Position numbers and translations under genes: made by a program | The notes under the pieces: generated by a model | What the model was told of the DNA's origin: nothing | The model's input: the letters and a program-made list of their open reading frames with translations, nothing else | Database searches by the model: none | Virus record (IMG/VR): IMGVR_UViG_3300042562_001667 | Location: 1 to 64,000 of that record | Source of the DNA: a virus | Length of the DNA: 64,000 bases | Direction: 5' to 3' (one strand) | In this document: piece by piece, positions 1 through 20,871 of the stretch | How positions within the stretch are numbered: position 1 is the stretch's first letter | Layout of the letters: each line of letters starts with the position of its first letter

Positions 1-354
1 TTGCCAGCACTTACTGTAAATAATAAAGGTGCTGCTATTCAAATAAGTTATCAACAGATCTATACAGAAGGAGATTTTAATTTTGGTCCAAGAGTTGGTT
101 TAATATATCATCCGTTAAACACGGCTTGGAATAATTTTTATTGGCAAAATATTATTGAATATAAGGGATTCTTTATCTCACCATTCTGGTTAAGAAGTTA
201 TGATAAAACAATTGGTTATCAAATTCCTACAAGTCTTGGTTATATAGCAAAAACAAAAATTGCAAATATTGAAGTATGGGGAAATTATGTTATGCATGCC
301 CGTACTTTTGATGTACAAATTATTATAGTACCTAATATAAAAACAAGATTATAA
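1..354 (+). CDS. 3' part of an unrecognised gene, cut by the window edge
   Basis: The reading frame is open from base 1 and ends at TAA 352-354. The TTG at base 1 is probably not a real start, so this is most likely the last 117 residues of a longer protein. The piece is rich in aromatic residues and shows alternating polar/hydrophobic stretches, as in beta-strands. This could suit a beta-barrel or other beta-rich structural protein, but I recognise no family. It points rightward and converges on the leftward gene that ends at 368, so it belongs to a different transcription unit from the genes beside it. Confidence 0.55.
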   Translation: MPALTVNNKGAAIQISYQQIYTEGDFNFGPRVGLIYHPLNTAWNNFYWQNIIEYKGFFISPFWLRSYDKTIGYQIPTSLGYIAKTKIANIEVWGNYVMHARTFDVQIIIVPNIKTRL

Positions 355-367
355 TTTTTGATTTAAT

Positions 368-574
368 TTATTTAAATCTCACTGCTTTTCCAACTTTAAT
401 AAATTCTTGACCACATCCTTCACAGTATAGATCAATATGACTGTATTCCAGGAGATTCCTTTTCATACAGTTAGGACATAATATGTTTGAATTAAATACA
501 GAAGAATTTTCCAACATATGTTGATCTCCTTCTTTTTCTCTAATTTCCATAAATAATTGTTTTGTTTTACTCAT
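368..574 (-). CDS. small zinc-ribbon protein
   Basis: A 68-residue protein with two CxxC knuckles (CPNC near residue 33 and CEGC near residue 51), spaced as in a zinc ribbon. The N-terminal 30 residues are charged and probably helical. Small zinc-ribbon proteins of this kind are common in phage accessory regions and may bind nucleic acid or a host protein; no specific role can be read from the sequence. It is the last leftward gene before the convergent gene at the window edge. The first ATG is used and lies in an AT-rich context without a Shine-Dalgarno site. Confidence 0.6.
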   Translation of the reverse strand: MSKTKQLFMEIREKEGDQHMLENSSVFNSNILCPNCMKRNLLEYSHIDLYCEGCGQEFIKVGKAVRFK

Positions 575-654
575 TTTAATGTGGGTTTAATAATTTCTTT
601 TTTCTAATTTTACTTGGACACAGTTATGCGTGTAAAATGTTCGCCAATATCTAT

Positions 655-662
655 GTTATCGG
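655..662 (-). other. attC-like R'' half-site at the end of the third cassette
   Basis: Read on the minus strand, CCGATAAC overlaps the stop codon of the small gene at 656-787. It is the exact reverse complement of the GTTATCGG that opens the same cassette at 812-819. Matching ends within one cassette are what an integron cassette shows after insertion. I could not find a clear L'/R' half to its left, so this last site looks incomplete or degraded where the array meets phage sequence. Confidence 0.45.
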
Positions 663-787
663 TCAGTGCTTGAAGCTGCGTTCATACATTCCCTGTAATA
701 CTTAATCTTATCTTCATCAGTCATCCATAATGCAGCGCATCCGCATAAGTCATAAAAGTCGATTTCTAAAATTTCTTTATCTGTCAT
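656..787 (-). CDS. small orphan protein in cassette C
   Basis: A 43-residue acidic protein starting MTDKEILEIDF. The frame is open further upstream to 841, but that stretch lies inside the attC-like site at 812-905, so I prefer the ATG at 787. It has two cysteines in a DLCGC segment and no recognised family. The gene sits between two attC-like repeats and is richer in G+C than the phage genes around it, both of which suggest it arrived as a mobile cassette. It could be a chance frame, because it is very short, but the position exactly between cassette ends argues for a gene. Confidence 0.45.
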   Translation of the reverse strand: MTDKEILEIDFYDLCGCAALWMTDEDKIKYYRECMNAASSTDR

Positions 788-811
788 TTTCGTTTCAATT
801 ACCGCACCGAA

Positions 812-905
812 CCGATAACAAAGGCTAAAAGCAATTGCCATTAAGCATAGTGCAAATTTTAAGCAGTATTTAAGGCAACTGCTCTTAGCCTCAACCGTTA
901 TGTGC
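812..905 (-). other. attC-like recombination site B
   Basis: Read on the minus strand it has R'' GCACATAAC (905-897), a 6-nt spacer, L'' of 17 nt (890-874), a variable loop, L' of 17 nt (839-823), a 3-nt spacer, and R' GTTATCGG (819-812). L'' and L' pair over all 17 positions, two of them G-T wobbles, and the AAC/GTT outer core with unequal spacers is the integron attC layout. The R'' is the exact complement of the GTTATGTGC that opens the cassette it belongs to (1137-1145). The wobbles make sense only when the minus strand folds, so that strand would be the recombining one. Confidence 0.68.
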
Positions 906-907
906 CA

Positions 908-1120
908 TTATACAAACGACACAGCATCACCCATATAATTGTAAGTCATAAAAAACGGCTTACCACATTCGCATTTTATTTTGGTTATTCCTTGCTTGTT
1001 TCTTTGGCATCGTTCAAGGTATTTATCATCCCTATCATTGTATTGCTTTTTACAAATTGGACATTCAAAGTCTGTTTTGGCAAAATCAATAAAGCCATTT
1101 TTTATTTGTACTCCTATCAT
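908..1120 (-). CDS. small zinc-finger protein in cassette B
   Basis: A 70-residue protein from ATG 1120; a longer TTG start at 1147 would lie inside the attC-like site and is less likely. It has CPIC near residue 21, a lone C, then KCECGKPFF near residue 52, so four or five cysteines could hold zinc. I do not recognise the family. The stop codon lies 3 nt before the R'' of attC-like site B, the usual tight spacing of a cassette gene to its attC. Like its neighbours it is richer in G+C than the phage average. Confidence 0.55.
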   Translation of the reverse strand: MIGVQIKNGFIDFAKTDFECPICKKQYNDRDDKYLERCQRNKQGITKIKCECGKPFFMTYNYMGDAVSFV

Positions 1121-1136
1121 ATTTCTAAATTTAACG

Positions 1137-1191
1137 GCACATAACAAGGGTTTTGCGTAATAGCCCTATCAAGCTGCAAAACGTTAGGTGC
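1137..1191 (-). other. attC-like recombination site A
   Basis: A 55-nt site. On the minus strand it reads R'' GCACCTAAC (1191-1183), then GTTTTGC pairing with GCAAAAC across a 19-nt loop, a CCTT spacer and R' GTTATGTGC (1145-1137). The outer repeats match at 8 of 9 positions, the inner 7 nt match perfectly, and the spacers are unequal, as in integron attC sites. Its R' matches the R'' of the next site exactly, which is expected because R' travels with the following cassette. Confidence 0.68.
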
Positions 1192-1231
1192 AAAATTACC
1201 GCTCACATCAGGCAACAGTTTCCTATTCATA

Positions 1232-1483
1232 TCATAGCCAATTTATAAAATTAAGTAATATCCATTTGTTCGCACCTTCCAAAGTGCCTTCATAATCTAT
1301 TACCGTATTTGGCTTTTGTACCCATTCTTCTTTATAATATGTTTGACAATAGTCAATCCACTTCTCCCAATCAATCAATAAATTGCCATCCGTGAAGTCT
1401 GATAAAAACGCTATTCTTACGCATGGAAGTGGGTTGGTTTCATCCCAAATCTCTTTGGATGCTGATAGTTTTAATTTGTTCAT
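1232..1483 (-). CDS. small orphan protein in cassette A
   Basis: An 83-residue acidic, tryptophan-rich protein beginning MNKLKLSASK and ending ILLNFINWL. No family is recognised; the size and composition resemble small immunity or anti-toxin-like cassette proteins, but that is only a resemblance. It starts 4 nt after the helicase stop codon and ends 40 nt before attC-like site A. No matching cassette-opening repeat is visible upstream, so the 5' boundary of this cassette is unclear; either that end has been lost or the gene belongs to the phage. Confidence 0.6.
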   Translation of the reverse strand: MNKLKLSASKEIWDETNPLPCVRIAFLSDFTDGNLLIDWEKWIDYCQTYYKEEWVQKPNTVIDYEGTLEGANKWILLNFINWL

Positions 1484-1487
1484 AATC

Positions 1488-2576
1488 TTAATTTACATTT
1501 ATAATTTTACTTTGATCTAATCCTTCCAGTGCATTGTTTATCCATTTTTCATCAATGGTATCTTTATAGCAAAGAATGTGTATATATGCAGTTTCAGTAG
1601 GATTAAGTCTGAGGAGTCTACCTATCCTCTGATTGCTTTTACGTTCATTACCATATGAATGCATAATAATTCCAACTTTTAAATTGGGAATAGTGACACC
1701 TTCATTTAATTGCATAACACATGATAATTTTTGTATTCTAGAATCTTTAAATAATTGCAAATTCTCATCAGACTTAATATTATTAGAATGAAAACTATAT
1801 TTACAAATTCTATCAGCTTGTTCTTGAGTATTAGCAAATATAATACACTTATCATTTACTTGTTTTAAAATGCTTTTAACATACATTTCTTTAGTGTTAT
1901 AATCCATCATTGCTCTCATTCTTAAAATAGAAAAAAACTGCATTTGTTTTGGTGTAGTGGCTTCTGCTAATTGTCTTGTTAAATATTCATAATCATTTCT
2001 TTCAGAAGTATACCACACTCCACCATTTTTCTTTTTCTTCTTTAATGTTTGTAATTTACTTAGTTCAATTTTATGAATAAAGATTTTATAATTATTTAGA
2101 ATTTTTTGATCAGTGGCTTGATCTACAGAAAAATTAAATACCATAGGACAATATTTATAAACCATCCTATATTTTTCACTTTCCTTTCTAATGGGTGGTG
2201 TACCGGTTAAACCAACAATTTTTCCTTTAAACTTTTTTAAAAACATTTCATGAGTATCCAAAAGACTATGACATTCATCTAAATAGACAATATCATAATC
2301 AGTTGGATCCTGCTTGTTTATAGAAAGATATGTTGTAAATACTATATGACTGCTTAATTTTTCTAGATTCATTTTTTTTAGTTCATCATCCCAAGAATCC
2401 TTAATAGATAATTTAGGTATTACAACTAAAGCTTTTACAAAAGGATGAAAGTTTTTTATTAAATGTTTTATGGCAATTCTTGTCTTACCAACACCCATTG
2501 AAATACCTACACCGCATCTTTCGTGTTTTTCTATCTCTTTTAAGGCTTGTTCTTGAATAGAGTCTTTGTTATTCAT
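1488..2576 (-). CDS. superfamily 2 DNA/RNA helicase
   Basis: A 362-residue SF2 ATPase, shorter than most two-domain helicases (usually 400-600 aa). Motif I is GVGKTR at residues 28-33, motif II is DECH at 100-103, motif III is TGTPP near 125, and motif VI is QRIGRLLR near 318. It contains both RecA-like lobes but no extra domain. Proteins of this type remodel DNA or protein-DNA complexes in phage replication, recombination or repair. The gene overlaps the start of the upstream glucosaminidase gene's last codons by 8 nt, so the two are probably co-transcribed. The exact subfamily (Snf2-like or UvsW-like) cannot be fixed from the motifs alone. Confidence 0.88.
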   Translation of the reverse strand: MNNKDSIQEQALKEIEKHERCGVGISMGVGKTRIAIKHLIKNFHPFVKALVVIPKLSIKDSWDDELKKMNLEKLSSHIVFTTYLSINKQDPTDYDIVYLDECHSLLDTHEMFLKKFKGKIVGLTGTPPIRKESEKYRMVYKYCPMVFNFSVDQATDQKILNNYKIFIHKIELSKLQTLKKKKKNGGVWYTSERNDYEYLTRQLAEATTPKQMQFFSILRMRAMMDYNTKEMYVKSILKQVNDKCIIFANTQEQADRICKYSFHSNNIKSDENLQLFKDSRIQKLSCVMQLNEGVTIPNLKVGIIMHSYGNERKSNQRIGRLLRLNPTETAYIHILCYKDTIDEKWINNALEGLDQSKIINVN

Positions 2577-3147
2577 GATAAAAAATTTCTTTTAATTTTT
2601 CATTTTTAATAATTTCTTTTAACTTCTCAGAATACTTAAATGCTTCTGCATAAGTTGCATCTAACGCATCATAATATTCTTGTTCAGAATTAATTTTGCT
2701 TAAATATCTGCATTGATAAAAAGCATAATCATAGACACTTTCTTGCCAGTTATTATAATAAGCATGATTAAGTTGTGTTCCTTTAGCAGTTTTAATTCTT
2801 TTATTGGCCATTTTCATTCCAAATAAATTATGATTCTCTTTAAACACTATAGATGTCCAATGACCGGTTTCAAGAATAGATTGTGCTAATACTATATAAG
2901 GGTATTTAACATCTAACTCTTTAATCATATCTATTAAATCGTTTTTAGAGAAGACCTGATCATTATCTCTTATTATATGAATACCACCTTCTAACTCAAT
3001 AATTTGCGCTTTTGTAATATTTTTTCCTACTACAATACCACTTAATAGTGTAGATACTACAATAATAAAGCAAATACTTCCGAATACTATTATTTCCCTA
3101 TAAACAGGTTCAAATAATAGTTTTTGTTTGTTATATTTATAAAACAT
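2569..3147 (-). CDS. membrane-anchored GH73-type glucosaminidase
   Basis: A 192-residue protein with one N-terminal membrane segment (about residues 19-40) followed by a glucosaminidase domain (about 70-190). The segment SILETGHW carries the expected catalytic Glu at residue 93, and NLFGMK and the YNNWQES region are typical of GH73 enzymes. It should cut the glycan strands of peptidoglycan, with the active domain held on the outer face of the inner membrane by its signal anchor. This is a second cell-wall enzyme in the window, separate from the amidase at 12.0 kb. It may act in entry, in lysis, or in remodelling the wall during infection. Confidence 0.85.
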   Translation of the reverse strand: MFYKYNKQKLLFEPVYREIIVFGSICFIIVVSTLLSGIVVGKNITKAQIIELEGGIHIIRDNDQVFSKNDLIDMIKELDVKYPYIVLAQSILETGHWTSIVFKENHNLFGMKMANKRIKTAKGTQLNHAYYNNWQESVYDYAFYQCRYLSKINSEQEYYDALDATYAEAFKYSEKLKEIIKNEKLKEIFYHE

Positions 3148-3201
3148 AATTATTAGTGTTTAAGCTTATAATTGAATATTATAAGCAGTGAAATTTATAA
3201 A

Positions 3202-3407
3202 AGAATAAGAAACTCTCTTGCATGTTCTACCATGCTTCTAGTTTTTATTAGACATAGTTTACTGTCTACCTGTTGTAGTGCACTACAGAGCAGGATCCAT
3301 CACAGTTCACTTTGGGGCATGTATCTCATTTGGGTAATTACTCCCAAGAGCCAAAGTTTCTTTCAACGGTGCTAATCCGTCCTCTGTAAGAGAGTTTTCT
3401 CATTCTT
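3202..3407 (-). ncRNA. unclassified 206-nt structured RNA
   Basis: The ends pair over 19-20 nt (3202-3220 with 3388-3407). Inside are hairpins GCATG/CATGC (3220-3235), TAGACA/TGTCTA (3249-3268), an arm around the palindrome TGTAGTGCACTACA (3274-3287), a compound arm CTTTGG/CCAAAG with CTC/GAG and TTGGG/CCCAA (3310-3356), and GACGG/CCGTT closing a 7-nt loop (3365-3381). Two pairs are G-U only if the minus strand is the RNA, which sets the strand. It starts 3 nt after the tRNA-like gene at 3410-3519, so they are probably co-transcribed. I recognise no known family; it has neither tmRNA nor RNase P RNA motifs. Confidence 0.65.
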
Positions 3408-3409
3408 AG

Positions 3410-3519
3410 TAGTCAGGACAGGATTCGAACCTGTAATACCAACCAGTAACTCCTTCGGTCATCATGCCTCAGGTCATCGTTGGACTTACTTGTAGCGTCT
3501 ACCGTTCCGCCACCTGACT
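3410..3519 (-). tRNA. tRNA-Leu-like gene with abnormal anticodon domain, copy 1
   Basis: The minus strand gives a perfect 7-bp acceptor stem (AGTCAGG/CCTGACT) with discriminator A, a D arm GCG/CGC with GG in its loop, and a canonical T arm ACAGG-TTCGAAT-CCTGT. The D arm matches tRNA-Leu. Between D and T arms there are about 60 nt instead of about 32, and no 5-bp/7-nt anticodon arm forms next to the D arm. Within it CCAAC pairs with GTTGG just before the T arm, and AGTAA-TCC pairs with GGA-TTACT. It may hold an insertion, or be a tRNA mimic. CCA is not encoded. Confidence 0.6.
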
Positions 3520-3537: not shown

Positions 3538-3912
3538 CTACTGATTCAACTTTTTTTCTAAACCTGAAATAATATATGATGCAGTCATGTAGTTTGTTGC
3601 CAAAGGTGTGTTATACACATTACAAATCCTTAACAACATATTCACATCAACTTGGTGAGGATGAACTTCCAACGGGTCAATAAAGAATACAACACCAGAT
3701 ATTTCACCGTTGGCAATCATTGATGCAATTTGAGCATCACCACCAAGTGGTCCTGACTTCATACATTCAACATCCAATCCTGCGTGTTCAATATGTCTTC
3801 CTGTGGTTCCCGTTGCAATAACATCAACCCTTTTGAAGAACTCTAATCTCTTCATAACAAAGGCAACCATGTCAGCTTTTTTTCCGTCGTGAGCAATAAC
3901 TGCAATTTTCAT
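3538..3912 (-). CDS. mgsA: methylglyoxal synthase
   Basis: A 124-residue full-length MgsA. It carries ATGTTGRH at residues 33-40, SGPLGGDAQ at 53-61 with the catalytic Asp59, and FFIDPLEVHPHQVD at 76-89 with His86 and Asp89, matching the active site of the E. coli enzyme. The family converts dihydroxyacetone phosphate to methylglyoxal and releases phosphate, by-passing lower glycolysis. In a phage this would be an auxiliary metabolic gene; freeing phosphate or slowing host growth are inferences. The gene is richer in G+C than its neighbours and sits between two tRNA-like repeats that share a flank, which suggests acquisition as a unit. It ends with TAG. Confidence 0.94.
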   Translation of the reverse strand: MKIAVIAHDGKKADMVAFVMKRLEFFKRVDVIATGTTGRHIEHAGLDVECMKSGPLGGDAQIASMIANGEISGVVFFIDPLEVHPHQVDVNMLLRICNVYNTPLATNYMTASYIISGLEKKLNQ

Positions 3913-3927
3913 AATTTTTTAATTTAG

Positions 3928-4057
3928 TAGTCAGGACAGGATTCGAACCTGTATAATAACTTATGAGCAGGACTTTCACCGGGTTTTTCAAGGTTACTCC
4001 GCGTTATCTTTACTATTAACCTTTATTCATAGCGTCTACCAATTCCGCCACCTGACT
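3928..4057 (-). tRNA. tRNA-Leu-like gene with abnormal anticodon domain, copy 2
   Basis: It has the same acceptor stem, T arm and discriminator as copy 1, and a nearly identical D arm (AATTGGTAGA instead of AACGGTAGA). The segment between D and T arms is about 80 nt and unlike that of copy 1. ATAAC pairs with GTTAT just before the T arm, AAGGTTA pairs with TAACCTT, and TATGA just after the D arm could pair with TCATA. No standard anticodon arm is visible unless a 40-50 nt insertion is removed. Upstream it shares TTTTAATTACCAACTACT with copy 1. Both lie 15-20 nt from mgsA. Confidence 0.55.
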
Positions 4058-15936: not shown

Positions 15937-18115
15937 AATTATACCAACATATGAAAATGGTCAATGGACTACAACCGAATTTATTTCAAAAGATGAGTTT
16001 GTTGCTTTTTTATTAAGCATATTTAAAGAACCCGGTCAATATAATTTTGATGAAACTGCTTTTATTTTTAATGAGCAGGCTAAAAATTTTAATCAAAATG
16101 GTTTTTATTGTTCTGCACCTTTTAGATCAAAAGATTTTAATGAATACTGGAATGATCAGAAGAATAAATGTAGAGTAGGTGTAATTTTTAAAAATAAAAA
16201 CAACACTTGGTATTTAACTAGAGATTACTACATGTGGCTTAACTTCTTACCTATCTATGATAAAGAAGAAAAGAAATATGGTTTTGCTAAAGTTAGAGAT
16301 GCTCAATATCATATGGCACTTTATGAAATTTTAGCTGAATTAAATTATAAGCATGCTGCTATTTTAAAAAAACGTCAGATTGCAAGTTCTTATTTTCATA
16401 TGGGTAAGTTGATAAATACTTATTGGTTTGAAGAAGGTAGTGTTTGTAAAATTGGAGCATCACTAAAAGATTATATTAATGACAAAGGATCTTGGAAATT
16501 TCTTGACGAATACAAAGATTTTTTAAATGAGTATACAGCATGGTATAGACCAAGTAATCCTGAAAAAGTATTATTATGGCAACAGCAGATTGAAGTTAGA
16601 GTAGGTAATAGAAAAACAGCTAAAGGTTTAAAATCTAAGATTCAAGGTGCTTCATTTGAAAAAAGTTCTACAACAGGTGTTGGTGGTCCAACAACTTATT
16701 TTTTTCATGAAGAAGCTGGTATTGCTCCTAAGATGATGGAGACTTATGAATATCTTAGACCTGCTATGTCTTCAGGTATGGTTACTACAGGTATGTTTAT
16801 TGCTGCAGGATCTGTTGGTGATTTGGAACAATGCAATCCTTTAAAGGAAATGGTTCTTAATCCTAACAATAATGATATATATGCAGTGGAAACAAATCTT
16901 ATTGATCCAGATGGTACAATAGCATTTGCTAGTTTATTTATACCTGAGCAATGGTCAATGCCACCGTATATTGATGAATATGGTAATTCTCTGGTTGAAG
17001 ATGCTTTACAAGCAATTTATAAAGAAAGAGAAAAATGGAAATCTGAATTAAATCCGGAGCAGTATCAACTTAGAATTTCTCAGAAACCAACTAATATAGC
17101 AGAAGCATTTGCTTATAGAAAGGAATCTATATTTCCTCAAGGTATTATTTCTAAGCAGCTTAAAAGAATTGAAGATAAAGAATATTCTTTTGAGCATATT
17201 GAATTGGATAGAACAACAGATGGTGTTGATGCAAAGAGAAGTAATAAACTTCCTATTTTGCAATTTCCTGTAGATAAGAAGATGCAAGATAAATCAGGTG
17301 TACTTGTTGTATGGGAAAGACCTGTTAAGAAACCATCCTTTGGAATGTACTATGCATCTGTGGACCCTGTTTCAGAGGGTAAAACAACTACCTCTGATTC
17401 ATTGTGTAGTATTTTTGTTTATAAGACGGCTACTGAAGTAACAAGAGAAACTCCAGATGGCTATGAGATTTTTATAGAAAAAGATAAAATAGTTGCTGCC
17501 TGGTGTGGTAGACATGATGATGTCAACAAGACTCATGAGCAATTAGAAAAAATTATTGAATGGTATAATGCTTGGACGGTTGTTGAGAATAATATTTCTT
17601 TATTTATTCAATATATGATATCTAAAAGAAAACAAAGATATCTTGTACCAAAGCAGCAGATTTTATTTTTAAAAGATTTAGGATCTAATGCATCAGTGTA
17701 CCAAGAATATGGTTGGAAAAATACAGGTGTTTTATTTAAAAATCATTTGATTTCTTATGCTATTGAATTTTTAAGAGAAGAAATTGACACAGACTTAGAC
17801 AAGCATGGTAATATTATGAGCACTACATTAGGTATAGAAAGAATTCCAGATCCAATGTTATTAAAAGAAATGTTAGCTTATCAACCGGGAGTTAACGTTG
17901 ACCGTTTAGTAGCTTTTTCAGCTTTGGTTGCATTTGCTAAAATTCAGCAGTCAAATAGAGGTTTTAGTAAAAGAAAAGAGGAAGATGAAACAAAGAATTT
18001 GCAAAATCAAAATAATTTGTATAAATTAAAGTATAGTCCGTTTAAAAACTTGGAACGTAATAAAGCTATGACTTCAAGTAAATCTGGAAGATCAGCTTTT
18101 AAAAACTTTAGATAA
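15929..18115 (+). CDS. terL: large terminase subunit
   Basis: A 728-residue protein with an ATPase and a nuclease part. LKKRQIASSY near residue 150 takes the place of Walker A, as in other divergent crAss-like terminases. TYFFHEEAG carries the Walker B acids (E261-E262). The nuclease half begins with YYASVDPVSEG, where Asp479 is the first metal ligand. It drives DNA into the head and cuts it to length. It overlaps the GroES-like gene by 8 nt and the portal gene by 1 nt. The length is normal for crAss-like TerL proteins. Confidence 0.92.
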   Translation: MSRIIPTYENGQWTTTEFISKDEFVAFLLSIFKEPGQYNFDETAFIFNEQAKNFNQNGFYCSAPFRSKDFNEYWNDQKNKCRVGVIFKNKNNTWYLTRDYYMWLNFLPIYDKEEKKYGFAKVRDAQYHMALYEILAELNYKHAAILKKRQIASSYFHMGKLINTYWFEEGSVCKIGASLKDYINDKGSWKFLDEYKDFLNEYTAWYRPSNPEKVLLWQQQIEVRVGNRKTAKGLKSKIQGASFEKSSTTGVGGPTTYFFHEEAGIAPKMMETYEYLRPAMSSGMVTTGMFIAAGSVGDLEQCNPLKEMVLNPNNNDIYAVETNLIDPDGTIAFASLFIPEQWSMPPYIDEYGNSLVEDALQAIYKEREKWKSELNPEQYQLRISQKPTNIAEAFAYRKESIFPQGIISKQLKRIEDKEYSFEHIELDRTTDGVDAKRSNKLPILQFPVDKKMQDKSGVLVVWERPVKKPSFGMYYASVDPVSEGKTTTSDSLCSIFVYKTATEVTRETPDGYEIFIEKDKIVAAWCGRHDDVNKTHEQLEKIIEWYNAWTVVENNISLFIQYMISKRKQRYLVPKQQILFLKDLGSNASVYQEYGWKNTGVLFKNHLISYAIEFLREEIDTDLDKHGNIMSTTLGIERIPDPMLLKEMLAYQPGVNVDRLVAFSALVAFAKIQQSNRGFSKRKEEDETKNLQNQNNLYKLKYSPFKNLERNKAMTSSKSGRSAFKNFR

Positions 18116-20871
18116 TGAAAGTATATAATGCGTTAGATTTAAAAAAAGGTGCAAAAGGAGAAGGTTATCCTACTACTTCAAGCCTAACACAACCTATACA
18201 GTTTCTTTCATCAAAAGAAAAAGATGATGATTGGAGTGGTTGGAATATTGATTGGTTAGAACTTCAGGGTATGGAGTTTCTTAGACTTAATGCTAGAAGA
18301 CTTCTTAAGAATTATAAACTCGCAAAAGGTATTATTGATAAATCTGATTATATAGCCGTTGATGATAATGATCAAAGAGAACTTATTGAAATTTTAACAA
18401 AAGAAGATAACTCAGCTTTAGAGCTTAAGTTTTATCCAATTGTTCCTAATGTTATTAATGTACTTTGTGGTGAGTTTTCAAAAAGATATAATAAAGTTCA
18501 ATTTAGAGCTGTAGATGATTTATCATATAATGAAATGCTTGAGCAAAAAAGAATTCAAGTAGAACAAAATTTACTTGCAGACGCTGAAGCAAAACTTATT
18601 GCTAGAATGATTGAAATGGGTATGGACCCAAATAGTCCAGAAGCACAGGAACAACTAGCTCCAGAAAACATTAAATCATTACCTGAAATTGAAGACTTCT
18701 TTAGAAAGGATTATAGATCCTTAGTAGAAGAATGGGCATCTCATCAGTATAATGTAGATGAAGAAAGATTTAAAATGGCAGAACTAGAGGAAAGAGCTTT
18801 CCGTGATATGCTTATCACAGATCGTGAGTTTTGGCATTTTAGAATGATGGAAGATGATTATGAAGTAGAATTATGGAATCCTCTTCTTACTTTTTATCAC
18901 AAATCACCAGATTCACGCTATATCTCAGAAAGTAATTTTGTAGGTAAGTTGGATCTTATGACTGTTGCTGACGTTATTGATAAATATGGTTATTTAATGA
19001 ATGAGGAACAGCTTCATTCTTTACAGAATATATATCCTGCTAAATCAGCTTTATATCAAGTTAACGGGTATCAGAATGATGGTTCTTATTACGATCCAAG
19101 CAGATCTCATGAATGGAATACTAATATGCCAGGTTTAGCATATAGGCAATATGTTAGCAATTGGTCAAATGATCCTGCTAGAGGTGGTGATATTGTTAGT
19201 GCTATTCTCAATGAAAGTGATGATGTACATAATTGGGGTGAAAGTTATCTAATGAGAGTTTGTACAGTTTACTGGAAGACACAAAGAAAGGTGGGGCATC
19301 TTGTAAAGATTACTAGTGATGGGGAAATTATTCAGCAAATTGTAGATGAAACATTTAAAATAACAGAAAAACCACTTTATGACACATCTATTTTTAAAAA
19401 CAAAACTAAAGAAACACTTCTTGAGGGTGAACACATTGATTGGATTTGGATTAATGAAGTATGGGGAGGAGTTAAGGTTGGCCCAAACTTACCTGCTTTT
19501 TGGAGATCAAATATTAGTAATAATATTAATCCAATTTATATAGGAATTAATAGAACAAAACCTGGAAGAATTCCATTTCAATTTAAAGGATCTCAGACTT
19601 TATATGGTTGTAAACTTCCTGTAGAGGGAAGAGTGTTTTCTGATAGAAATACAAGGTCTACTTCATTAGTTGACTTAATGAAAGCATATCAGGTTGGTTA
19701 TAATATGGTTAATAATCAGATTGCTGATATTCTTATAGACGAACTTGGTACAGTAATTATGTTTGACCAAAATGCATTACCGAGACATTCAATGGGTGAA
19801 GATTGGGGTAAAGGTAATTATGCAAAAGCATATGTAGCAATGAAAGATTTTCAGATGTTACCTTTAGATACAAGTATTACAAACACTGAAAACGCCACTA
19901 ATTTCAATCATTATCAAGTTCTTAATATGGAACAGACTAATAGATTGATGTCAAGAATTCAACTTTCTAATTATTTTAAACAGCAAGCTTTTGATGCAAT
20001 TGGTATTAATCCACAAAGACTTGGAGCACCTATAGCGCAAGAAACAGCAACCGGTGTTACTCAAGCTTTGAATCAGTCTTATGCACAAACTGAAATATAT
20101 TTTAATCAGCATTCAGATCATTTAATGCCTAGAGTTCATCAAATGAGAACAGATTTATCGCAGTTTTATCATAGCAGAAATCCAAGTGTAAGATTAAGTT
20201 ATATTACATCTGAAGCAGAAAAAGTAAATTTTACCATTAATGGAACAGAACTTTTACTTAGAGATTTTAATATTTATGCTACAACTAAAACTAATCATAG
20301 AGCTATTCTTGATCAGTTAAAGCAATTAGCACTTACTAATAATACTATGGGATCTTCAATATTTGATCTTGGTAGTATTATTAAAGCAGATTCTATTGCT
20401 GAAGTATCTACTATTCTTAAAGGCTCAGAGCAAAAGCAAAATGCTATAAGAGAACAAGAAATTCAAAATCAAAGACAAATGCAAGAACAAGCTCTTCAAG
20501 CTAAAGCTCAAGAAGAACAAATGAAACTTCAATTTCAAGCAGATCAGAATAATAAGGATAGACAAAACGAACTTCTTATAGCTGAAATTAGAGCAGCTGG
20601 TTATGGTGCAACACAAGATATTGATAAAAACATGATGTCTGACTATAGAGATGCAATGAAAGATATTAAAGAGTCAACTCAATATCAAGAACAAATAAAC
20701 TTTAAAAGAGAGCAATCAGCTATAAATAATAGTATGGTTCAAAAGAAGTTAGATGTTGAAAGAGATAGGTTAACAACTCAAAGAGATGTTGCTAATACTC
20801 AACTTGAAATTGCTAGAGAAAATAAAAATAAATACGACATTAAAGCAAAATCTAATAGTAAAGAAAAATAA
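18115..20871 (+). CDS. portal protein
   Basis: A 918-residue protein directly after the large terminase, long for a portal but usual for crAss-like phages. The N-terminal 150 residues are helical (FYPIVPNVINVLCGEFSKR); the core has DEERFKMAELEERAFRDML and later QETATGVTQALNQSYAQTE, the helical stem region. The last 200 residues are a Gln/Lys/Glu-rich coiled coil likely to form the barrel. The portal is the dodecameric ring at the head vertex through which DNA enters and leaves. The call rests on position, size and recognised sequence pattern. Confidence 0.87.
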   Translation: MKVYNALDLKKGAKGEGYPTTSSLTQPIQFLSSKEKDDDWSGWNIDWLELQGMEFLRLNARRLLKNYKLAKGIIDKSDYIAVDDNDQRELIEILTKEDNSALELKFYPIVPNVINVLCGEFSKRYNKVQFRAVDDLSYNEMLEQKRIQVEQNLLADAEAKLIARMIEMGMDPNSPEAQEQLAPENIKSLPEIEDFFRKDYRSLVEEWASHQYNVDEERFKMAELEERAFRDMLITDREFWHFRMMEDDYEVELWNPLLTFYHKSPDSRYISESNFVGKLDLMTVADVIDKYGYLMNEEQLHSLQNIYPAKSALYQVNGYQNDGSYYDPSRSHEWNTNMPGLAYRQYVSNWSNDPARGGDIVSAILNESDDVHNWGESYLMRVCTVYWKTQRKVGHLVKITSDGEIIQQIVDETFKITEKPLYDTSIFKNKTKETLLEGEHIDWIWINEVWGGVKVGPNLPAFWRSNISNNINPIYIGINRTKPGRIPFQFKGSQTLYGCKLPVEGRVFSDRNTRSTSLVDLMKAYQVGYNMVNNQIADILIDELGTVIMFDQNALPRHSMGEDWGKGNYAKAYVAMKDFQMLPLDTSITNTENATNFNHYQVLNMEQTNRLMSRIQLSNYFKQQAFDAIGINPQRLGAPIAQETATGVTQALNQSYAQTEIYFNQHSDHLMPRVHQMRTDLSQFYHSRNPSVRLSYITSEAEKVNFTINGTELLLRDFNIYATTKTNHRAILDQLKQLALTNNTMGSSIFDLGSIIKADSIAEVSTILKGSEQKQNAIREQEIQNQRQMQEQALQAKAQEEQMKLQFQADQNNKDRQNELLIAEIRAAGYGATQDIDKNMMSDYRDAMKDIKESTQYQEQINFKREQSAINNSMVQKKLDVERDRLTTQRDVANTQLEIARENKNKYDIKAKSNSKEK

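Follow-up and report, generated by a model that had tools for sequence, protein, structure and literature searches.

The minus strand of positions 655-1483 carries a small integron cassette array without an integrase (CALIN). The window, i.e. the whole stretch of 64,000 nucleotides that was analysed, comes from the IMG/VR record IMGVR_UViG_3300042562_001667, which comprises 93,479 bases (93 kb) and has the cassette locus near one of its ends. Small genes alternate with two attC sites, 811-905 and 1137-1191, which share the minus-strand orientation (a CALIN being defined by at least two such sites), and the block is very probably the remnant of a three-gene cassette array, carried as a passenger by a tailed phage of a probable Bacteroidota host. 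An earlier note, made from the letters alone, had read the sites as attC; this reading is supported by a covariance model built without the window, by the register of the cassette cores, by sequence blocks shared with another phage, and by relatives that lack the block.

Genes for a large terminase subunit (phrog_6681) and a major head protein lie in the window, hence the record represents a tailed phage. Read along the minus strand, the locus comprises the end of a helicase gene, gene A, site A, gene B, site B, gene C, a closing core, a junction, and a zinc-ribbon-like gene. The left neighbour is a phage DNA helicase (ResIII/Helicase_C, 1488-2576, minus; Pfam ResIII 1e-10, Helicase_C 3e-9, PHROG 16 DNA helicase 6e-31), whose stop codon (1488-1490) lies 4 nt ahead of the ATG of cassette gene A. 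On the right, an 80-nt junction (575-654, minus) separates the array from the zinc-ribbon-like phage gene (368-574, minus). A 22-nt piece of the junction is present, among viral contigs, only in G001, a contig of 114,929 bases whose locus L008 is 100% identical to positions 1-3200 of the window, cassettes included. Among isolate records the helicase is closest to Flavobacterium phages, to which all 29 of 29 related records belong (about 30% identity among the matches listed); these relatives, together with Bacteroidota plasmids that match the attC family (see below), suggest that the host is probably an aquatic member of the Bacteroidota.

Some neighbouring elements deserve mention in their own right. 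An Rfam search of the whole window at gathering scores returned a freshwater-1 RNA and one tRNA only, with no attC. The freshwater-1 RNA (3243-3304, minus; RF02979, 78.4 bits, full length), for which the Rfam output states no function, is close to two similar tRNA-like genes with large inserts (3410-3519 and 3928-4057, minus; 38 bits each), at neither of which ARAGORN calls a tRNA; a gene with an MGS-like domain (3538-3912) sits between them.

Both attC sites lie on the minus strand where they had originally been placed. Site B (811-905) consists of R'' GCACATAAC, a stem, and R' GTTATCGGT; it does fold as an attC, with about 19 pairs including three G-T pairs as read from the sequence, and not with the 17-nt stem and two G-T pairs described earlier. 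Site A (1137-1191), with R'' GCACCTAAC, arms GTTTTGC/GCAAAAC and R' GTTATGTGC, lacks the inner 5' arm and loop when aligned with a site of the viral contig G002 (L044:8188-8287, alignment A2); since it corresponds letter for letter to the 3' half of a G002-type site, we regard it as a shortened attC. The attC core consensus is RYYYAAC/GTTRRRY. The invariant AAC and GTT are present in the cores of the window, while the degenerate positions fit in 4/4 cases only in R'' of site A (ACCTAAC), in 3/4 in R' of A and R'' of B, and in 1/4 in R' of B and R'' of cassette C; these cores themselves recur in G002. The folded strand exhibits inner L''/L' arms and unpaired spacers, weakly so in site A with its 7 bp. 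Compared with shuffled sequences, the single-stranded DNA folds of sites B and A have z-scores of -2.9 and -2.4, respectively (2/200 shuffles as good in each case), and the plus-strand folds are equal or better (-3.2 for site B, -3.3 for site A), so that folding provides no orientation, which comes from the covariance model instead. With a custom stem finder, site B obtained the top score of the window's minus strand (16.4, the runner-up having 13.9), and site A was missed because its 7-bp stem is under the threshold.

As the R' of each site is part of the cassette that follows, the opening core of a cassette should match its own closing core. This register rule, proposed in the earlier note, holds at 9/9 letters in cassettes B and C: the opening core of cassette B (1137-1145, minus; GTTATGTGC) is the exact complement of its own R'' GCACATAAC at 897-905, and that of cassette C (811-819, minus; GTTATCGGT) is the exact complement of the closing core ACCGATAAC at 655-663 (minus). 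Cross-cassette pairings match at 6/9 (R' of A with R'' of C) and 5/9 letters (R' of B with R'' of A). The note had taken the register as a signature that chance would not produce, which stands for cassette C and carries little weight for cassette B: the two cores of site A already match each other at 8/9 letters, so that the register is weak by itself for cassette B, while the cores inside site B match at just 6/9, which makes cassette C the better test. The same rule can be read by eye in the homolog of cassette C in contig G005, where the opening GTTGTAGGT matches the closing ACCTACAAC.

The closest counterpart of the array was found in G002 (IMGVR_UViG_3300020051_000030), a phage contig that also contains a terminase, a DnaB-like helicase, an SSB, and an exonuclease. 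It carries 16 attC sites in one orientation (L044:2331-8987, i.e. G002:22331-28987), and two of its cassettes are DNA methyltransferases. Comparison of its stretch L044 with positions 600-1520 of the window (exact matches of at least 14 nt) revealed identical blocks at the cassette boundaries: 41 nt that extend from inside site A into cassette B, 37 nt where cassette C opens, and 16 nt (AGCACTGACCGATAAC, L044:4428) where it closes, the identity with the G002 cassette end stopping exactly at position 655. The other exact matches are 14 nt at the closing of cassette B and one of 15 nt elsewhere; the genes inside the cassettes differ between the window and G002. In G002 itself, the opening and closing cores agree in at least 4 of the 5 variable letters for 14/15 consecutive cassettes, compared to 21/225 other pairings, and 0/20,000 permutations were as good.

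For a model independent of the window, we used the string TGCAAAACCCTTGTTAK from a G002 attC as a seed. It matches 30 stretches of the viral collection, of which 17 lie by reading in a complete attC (one of them, L062, runs off the end of the extracted stretch and is complete in its contig), three in a 3' half only, and ten look unrelated. The three halves (L064:860, L066:1490, L082:829) stand behind other DNA, like a broken cassette end. Alignment A4 combines 15 distinct complete sites with 7 more from G002 (15 contigs, window excluded); an earlier alignment, A3, was discarded, as it had lost the register of the arms. In the A4 structure of 26 pairs, 90% of cells are paired, compared to 36-56% when the pairing partners are shifted by 1 to 3 columns, and 15/26 pairs contain double changes, with 0/500 shuffles reaching the observed values. 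The covariance model R1, built from A4, was used to search the whole record of 93,479 bases, and its top two matches are site B (42.0 bits, E 1.7e-7) and site A (25.0 bits, E 0.0021), followed by one of 15.7 bits; these E-values are rough owing to a short calibration. With the filters off, both strands being searched as the earlier note had proposed, the minus strand is preferred over the plus strand for site B (42.0 vs 7.0 bits) as well as for site A (25.0 vs 10.7 bits). R1 found one match at E up to 1 in phage P12002L (26.1 bits); over the initial 50 kb of H101, a phage whose CALIN may lie outside this part, it found none. There was likewise no R1 match in contigs G004 and G005, though inspection by eye shows attC-like sites in both; the coverage of attC by R1 is incomplete.

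The search with the helicase yielded 29 related viral loci, one of which is the identical L008. The 28 others, which span 287,391 bases and include near-duplicate contigs (L005/L006, L007/L030, and others that look alike), so that not all are independent, contain nothing above 16.6 bits with R1. In five of them, the nearest relatives without cassettes (60-63% identity of the zinc-ribbon-like protein), one gene of 79 aa lies between the helicase and zinc-ribbon genes, in eight the two genes are 2 nt apart, and in one they enclose another small ORF; the zinc-ribbon matches in the latter nine loci are weak (28-35% identity, E 9e-7 to 6e-4), and in the remaining 14/28 this neighbour was undetected. 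A search for the 79-aa gene in the rest of the record gave no match (best E 0.16). In the comparison with related phages suggested in the earlier note, 14/28 loci share both flanks without cassettes, and 0/28 have an attC match. The layouts of the flanks indicate a spot of gene gain and loss, at which the cassettes are a local acquisition.

The three minus-strand genes and the sites that bound them were found as first described, except that the starts of genes B and C lie further downstream than those of the longest ORFs, which include translated attC. Gene A (1232-1483, minus) encodes 83 aa with no family found, and the scan of viral contigs yielded no relative of it other than that in the identical contig G001. 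Gene B (908-1120, minus) encodes a Cys-rich protein of 70 aa, zinc-finger-like by sequence; its homologs in G003 and G004 are 79-80% identical, and a homologous gene starts at the same point. The homolog in G004 (79%) also ends in an attC-like core, as read by eye. Gene C (656-787, minus) encodes 43 aa with no family found; it has a relative in L041/L050 (G005; 63% identity over 35 aa) that lies between attC-like cores, and the one in L041 indicates the start of gene C. The dN/dS values against these relatives are about 0.13 for gene B (70 codons) and 0.18 for gene C (37 codons), based on few sites and with dS above 1 in both comparisons, near saturation for C. As both genes differ from their relatives mainly at synonymous sites, they probably encode real proteins.

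Function predictions for the cassette proteins remained sparse. Pfam gave no family above the cut-off for A, B, or C, all matches of B being below the cut-offs (e.g. CRIPT with 20.7 bits, cut-off 25.5), and there was no PADLOC or NCBIfam match for any of the three and nothing better than E 0.027 in PHROGs. By sequence, protein B matches zinc-finger chains in the PDB (best E 2e-7). The AlphaFold models are poor (mean pLDDT 51 for B and 43 for A). A tblastn search of plasmids with proteins A and B gave no match, and a blastn search of phages with the region gave 18 records with matches of 28-51 nt (E 0.02 to 0.9), which we took as chance.

Both outer ends of the array are broken, a feature absent from the earlier note. 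The opening core GTTAGGTGC expected for cassette A is absent upstream of gene A, and the only GTTAGGTGC in the record is the complement of the R'' of site A itself. After the closing core of cassette C at 655 there is no attC arm; the remainder of that attC is missing, and the segment 600-670 folds no better than shuffles (z -0.84). From these two observations we infer that the array was cut at both ends. The ends may have been lost by the capture event itself or later. Judging from the sites, only cassette B still has one at each of its ends, and a host IntI that acts on the folded strand might in principle cut it out in circular form, while A and C would be locked in. The array as it presently stands is, given its frayed ends, not a clean integrase insertion.

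No integrase was detected: the record of the window has no match to PF00589 or TIGR02249, in agreement with the earlier note, although the record may be incomplete. A tyrosine recombinase (PF00589) was likewise found in 0/7 of the records G001 to G007, including the longer, identical G001, with the same reservation as to completeness. The cassettes were likely captured from a host integron, as originally suggested. We propose that a cassette stretch from the array of a bacterium or of another phage would have entered the interval between the helicase and zinc-ribbon genes through recombination that was not site-specific. The cassette genes, which run in the direction of the helicase right behind its stop, are probably transcribed from the phage operon. 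Alternatively, intact cassettes may have entered a secondary site in the phage genome directly through a host IntI, with decay of the ends afterwards. Off-target insertion by IntI is a proposed origin of CALINs (PMC8618304), and the place is one at which relatives gain and lose genes. Against this, a clean integrase insertion should leave half-sites, of which both outer ends are devoid (GTTAGGTGC before cassette A and an attC arm after C), so that nothing remains to mark a clean G|TT insertion, and we consider such a course possible and rather unlikely.

It is also conceivable, but doubtful in our view, that another phage, and not a bacterial chromosome, was the donor of the array, with attC or cassette ends serving for homologous recombination. 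The closest boundary sequence for cassettes B and C in our scans is indeed that of a phage contig (G002, 37-41 nt identical), and the homologs of genes B and C were encountered in viral contigs (G003 and G004 for B, G005 for C). The difference in the genes inside the cassettes of G002 speaks against this source, and the coverage of bacterial genomes, by a single DNA pattern and a single protein alignment with no match from either, leaves bacterial sources under-sampled: the pattern, made of the 20 nt that open cassette C, gave 0 matches in bacterial genome contigs, and the protein B alignment A1 gave 94 pattern stretches, none of them a relative. Within these two scans, no bacterial integron or genome with these very cassettes was found.

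An assembly chimera of phage and bacterial DNA might be imagined for a metagenomic contig with frayed ends, and is nevertheless highly improbable, as the same junctions are 100% identical in the longer viral contig G001, possibly not an independent sample, and the DNA of G001 continues on both sides. Equally hard to credit is a chance resemblance to attC of ordinary inverted repeats or terminators between phage genes, which could draw on the good folding of both sites on both strands, the many weak stem matches in AT-rich phage DNA, and the nearly palindromic cores of site A (8/9), and is contradicted by the exact register of cassette C, by the exact blocks common to the attC array of another phage, and by a model trained elsewhere that scores the sites above the rest of the record and the 28 relatives. 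We therefore retain the reading of the block as the remnant of an integron cassette array.

The attC family of the window extends to other viral contigs and to bacterial plasmids. R1 matches an attC at E up to 0.001 in 18/20 further viral records, which is not a prevalence, as 16/20 were chosen for holding the motif. A large terminase (phrog_2) is present in 10/19 records tested (G001, whose terminase belongs to another family, phrog_6681 in the window, is not among the 10), and a tyrosine recombinase in 1/16. In the 57-kb viral contig G003, an 18-kb stretch (L046:16778 to L047:14453, i.e. G003:16778-34453) downstream of the homolog of cassette B has 11 R1 matches with E up to 1, all of them on a single strand, and six matches in the contig pass E 0.001; G015 has a weak match of 25.4 bits, a half attC. 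In G022 (17705-20255; L079, L083) two attC sites are followed by a tyrosine recombinase gene within about 0.5 to 0.8 kb. Its product, considered as a putative IntI, scores 154 of the 265 bits required with the integron-integrase model and reaches no NCBIfam cut-off; its best NCBIfam model, the description of which also names integron integrase, is of the XerA type (194 of 220 bits). A member of the family from L069 had no match by blastn among 50,697 phage records, and as a query matched five plasmid records, all from Bacteroidota (Empedobacter, Chryseobacterium, Adhaeribacter). In the Empedobacter plasmids NZ_CP043636 and NZ_CP043637 the family occurs at a lincosamide nucleotidyltransferase gene.

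These observations suggest that phages may move cassettes among Bacteroidota. We tentatively advance the idea, which we think may well prove wrong, that uncultivated Bacteroidota phages form a recurrent, integrase-free reservoir of cassettes, in which many unrelated phages share one attC family. If so, phages would swap cassettes with one another and with their hosts, relying on a host integrase in trans during infection, and the array of the window would be a decaying sample of a shared phage cassette pool. The IntegronFinder 2.0 paper names one complete integron in Bacteroidetes proper (PMC9024848). Our literature search, for which most subscription papers and bioRxiv were outside reach, found no paper on integron attC in viral contigs; judged by titles and the starts of abstracts, the sole screen of phage genomes found was that of Qi et al. 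(2023). The array of the window demonstrates, from raw sequence, integron cassettes in a phage outside culture collections, on evidence beyond attC prediction, namely the register, the boundary blocks in common, and the block-free relatives.

Compared with known systems, the array resembles complete integrons in the layout of cassettes and attC and differs from them in that no intI gene was found (PF00589 and TIGR02249, record of the window). The attC of the plasmids Adhaeribacter NZ_CP055152 and Chryseobacterium NZ_CP033916 belong to the same family (106 and 84 bits with R1), but each plasmid has one strong site (with one further R1 match of 28 bits in NZ_CP055152) in a bacterial plasmid context with other genes. 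The G002 array is alike in attC family, in the 41-, 37-, and 16-nt boundary blocks, in the register rule, and in that no tyrosine recombinase was found, and unlike in having 16 sites instead of two, longer attC, and other cargo; its two DNA methyltransferase cassettes fit the published idea that cassettes supply phages with anti-restriction genes (PMC9892861). In the same study, Qi et al. (2023) screened 10,705 phage genomes, in which they detected 17 CALINs, and report recombination with attI1 for 5/6 attC from virulent phages, including one of the two sites of Polaribacter phage P12002L (PMC9892861). These phage CALINs, some of them in virulent phages such as P12002L, share with the window clusters of attC, small cassette genes, and the lack of an integrase, whereas the window represents an uncultivated phage with a helicase nearest to those of Flavobacterium phages and an array with frayed outer ends. 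The array of the window belongs to this already published kind, and the more interesting lead is that several uncultivated phages carry arrays that lack an integrase and belong to one attC family.
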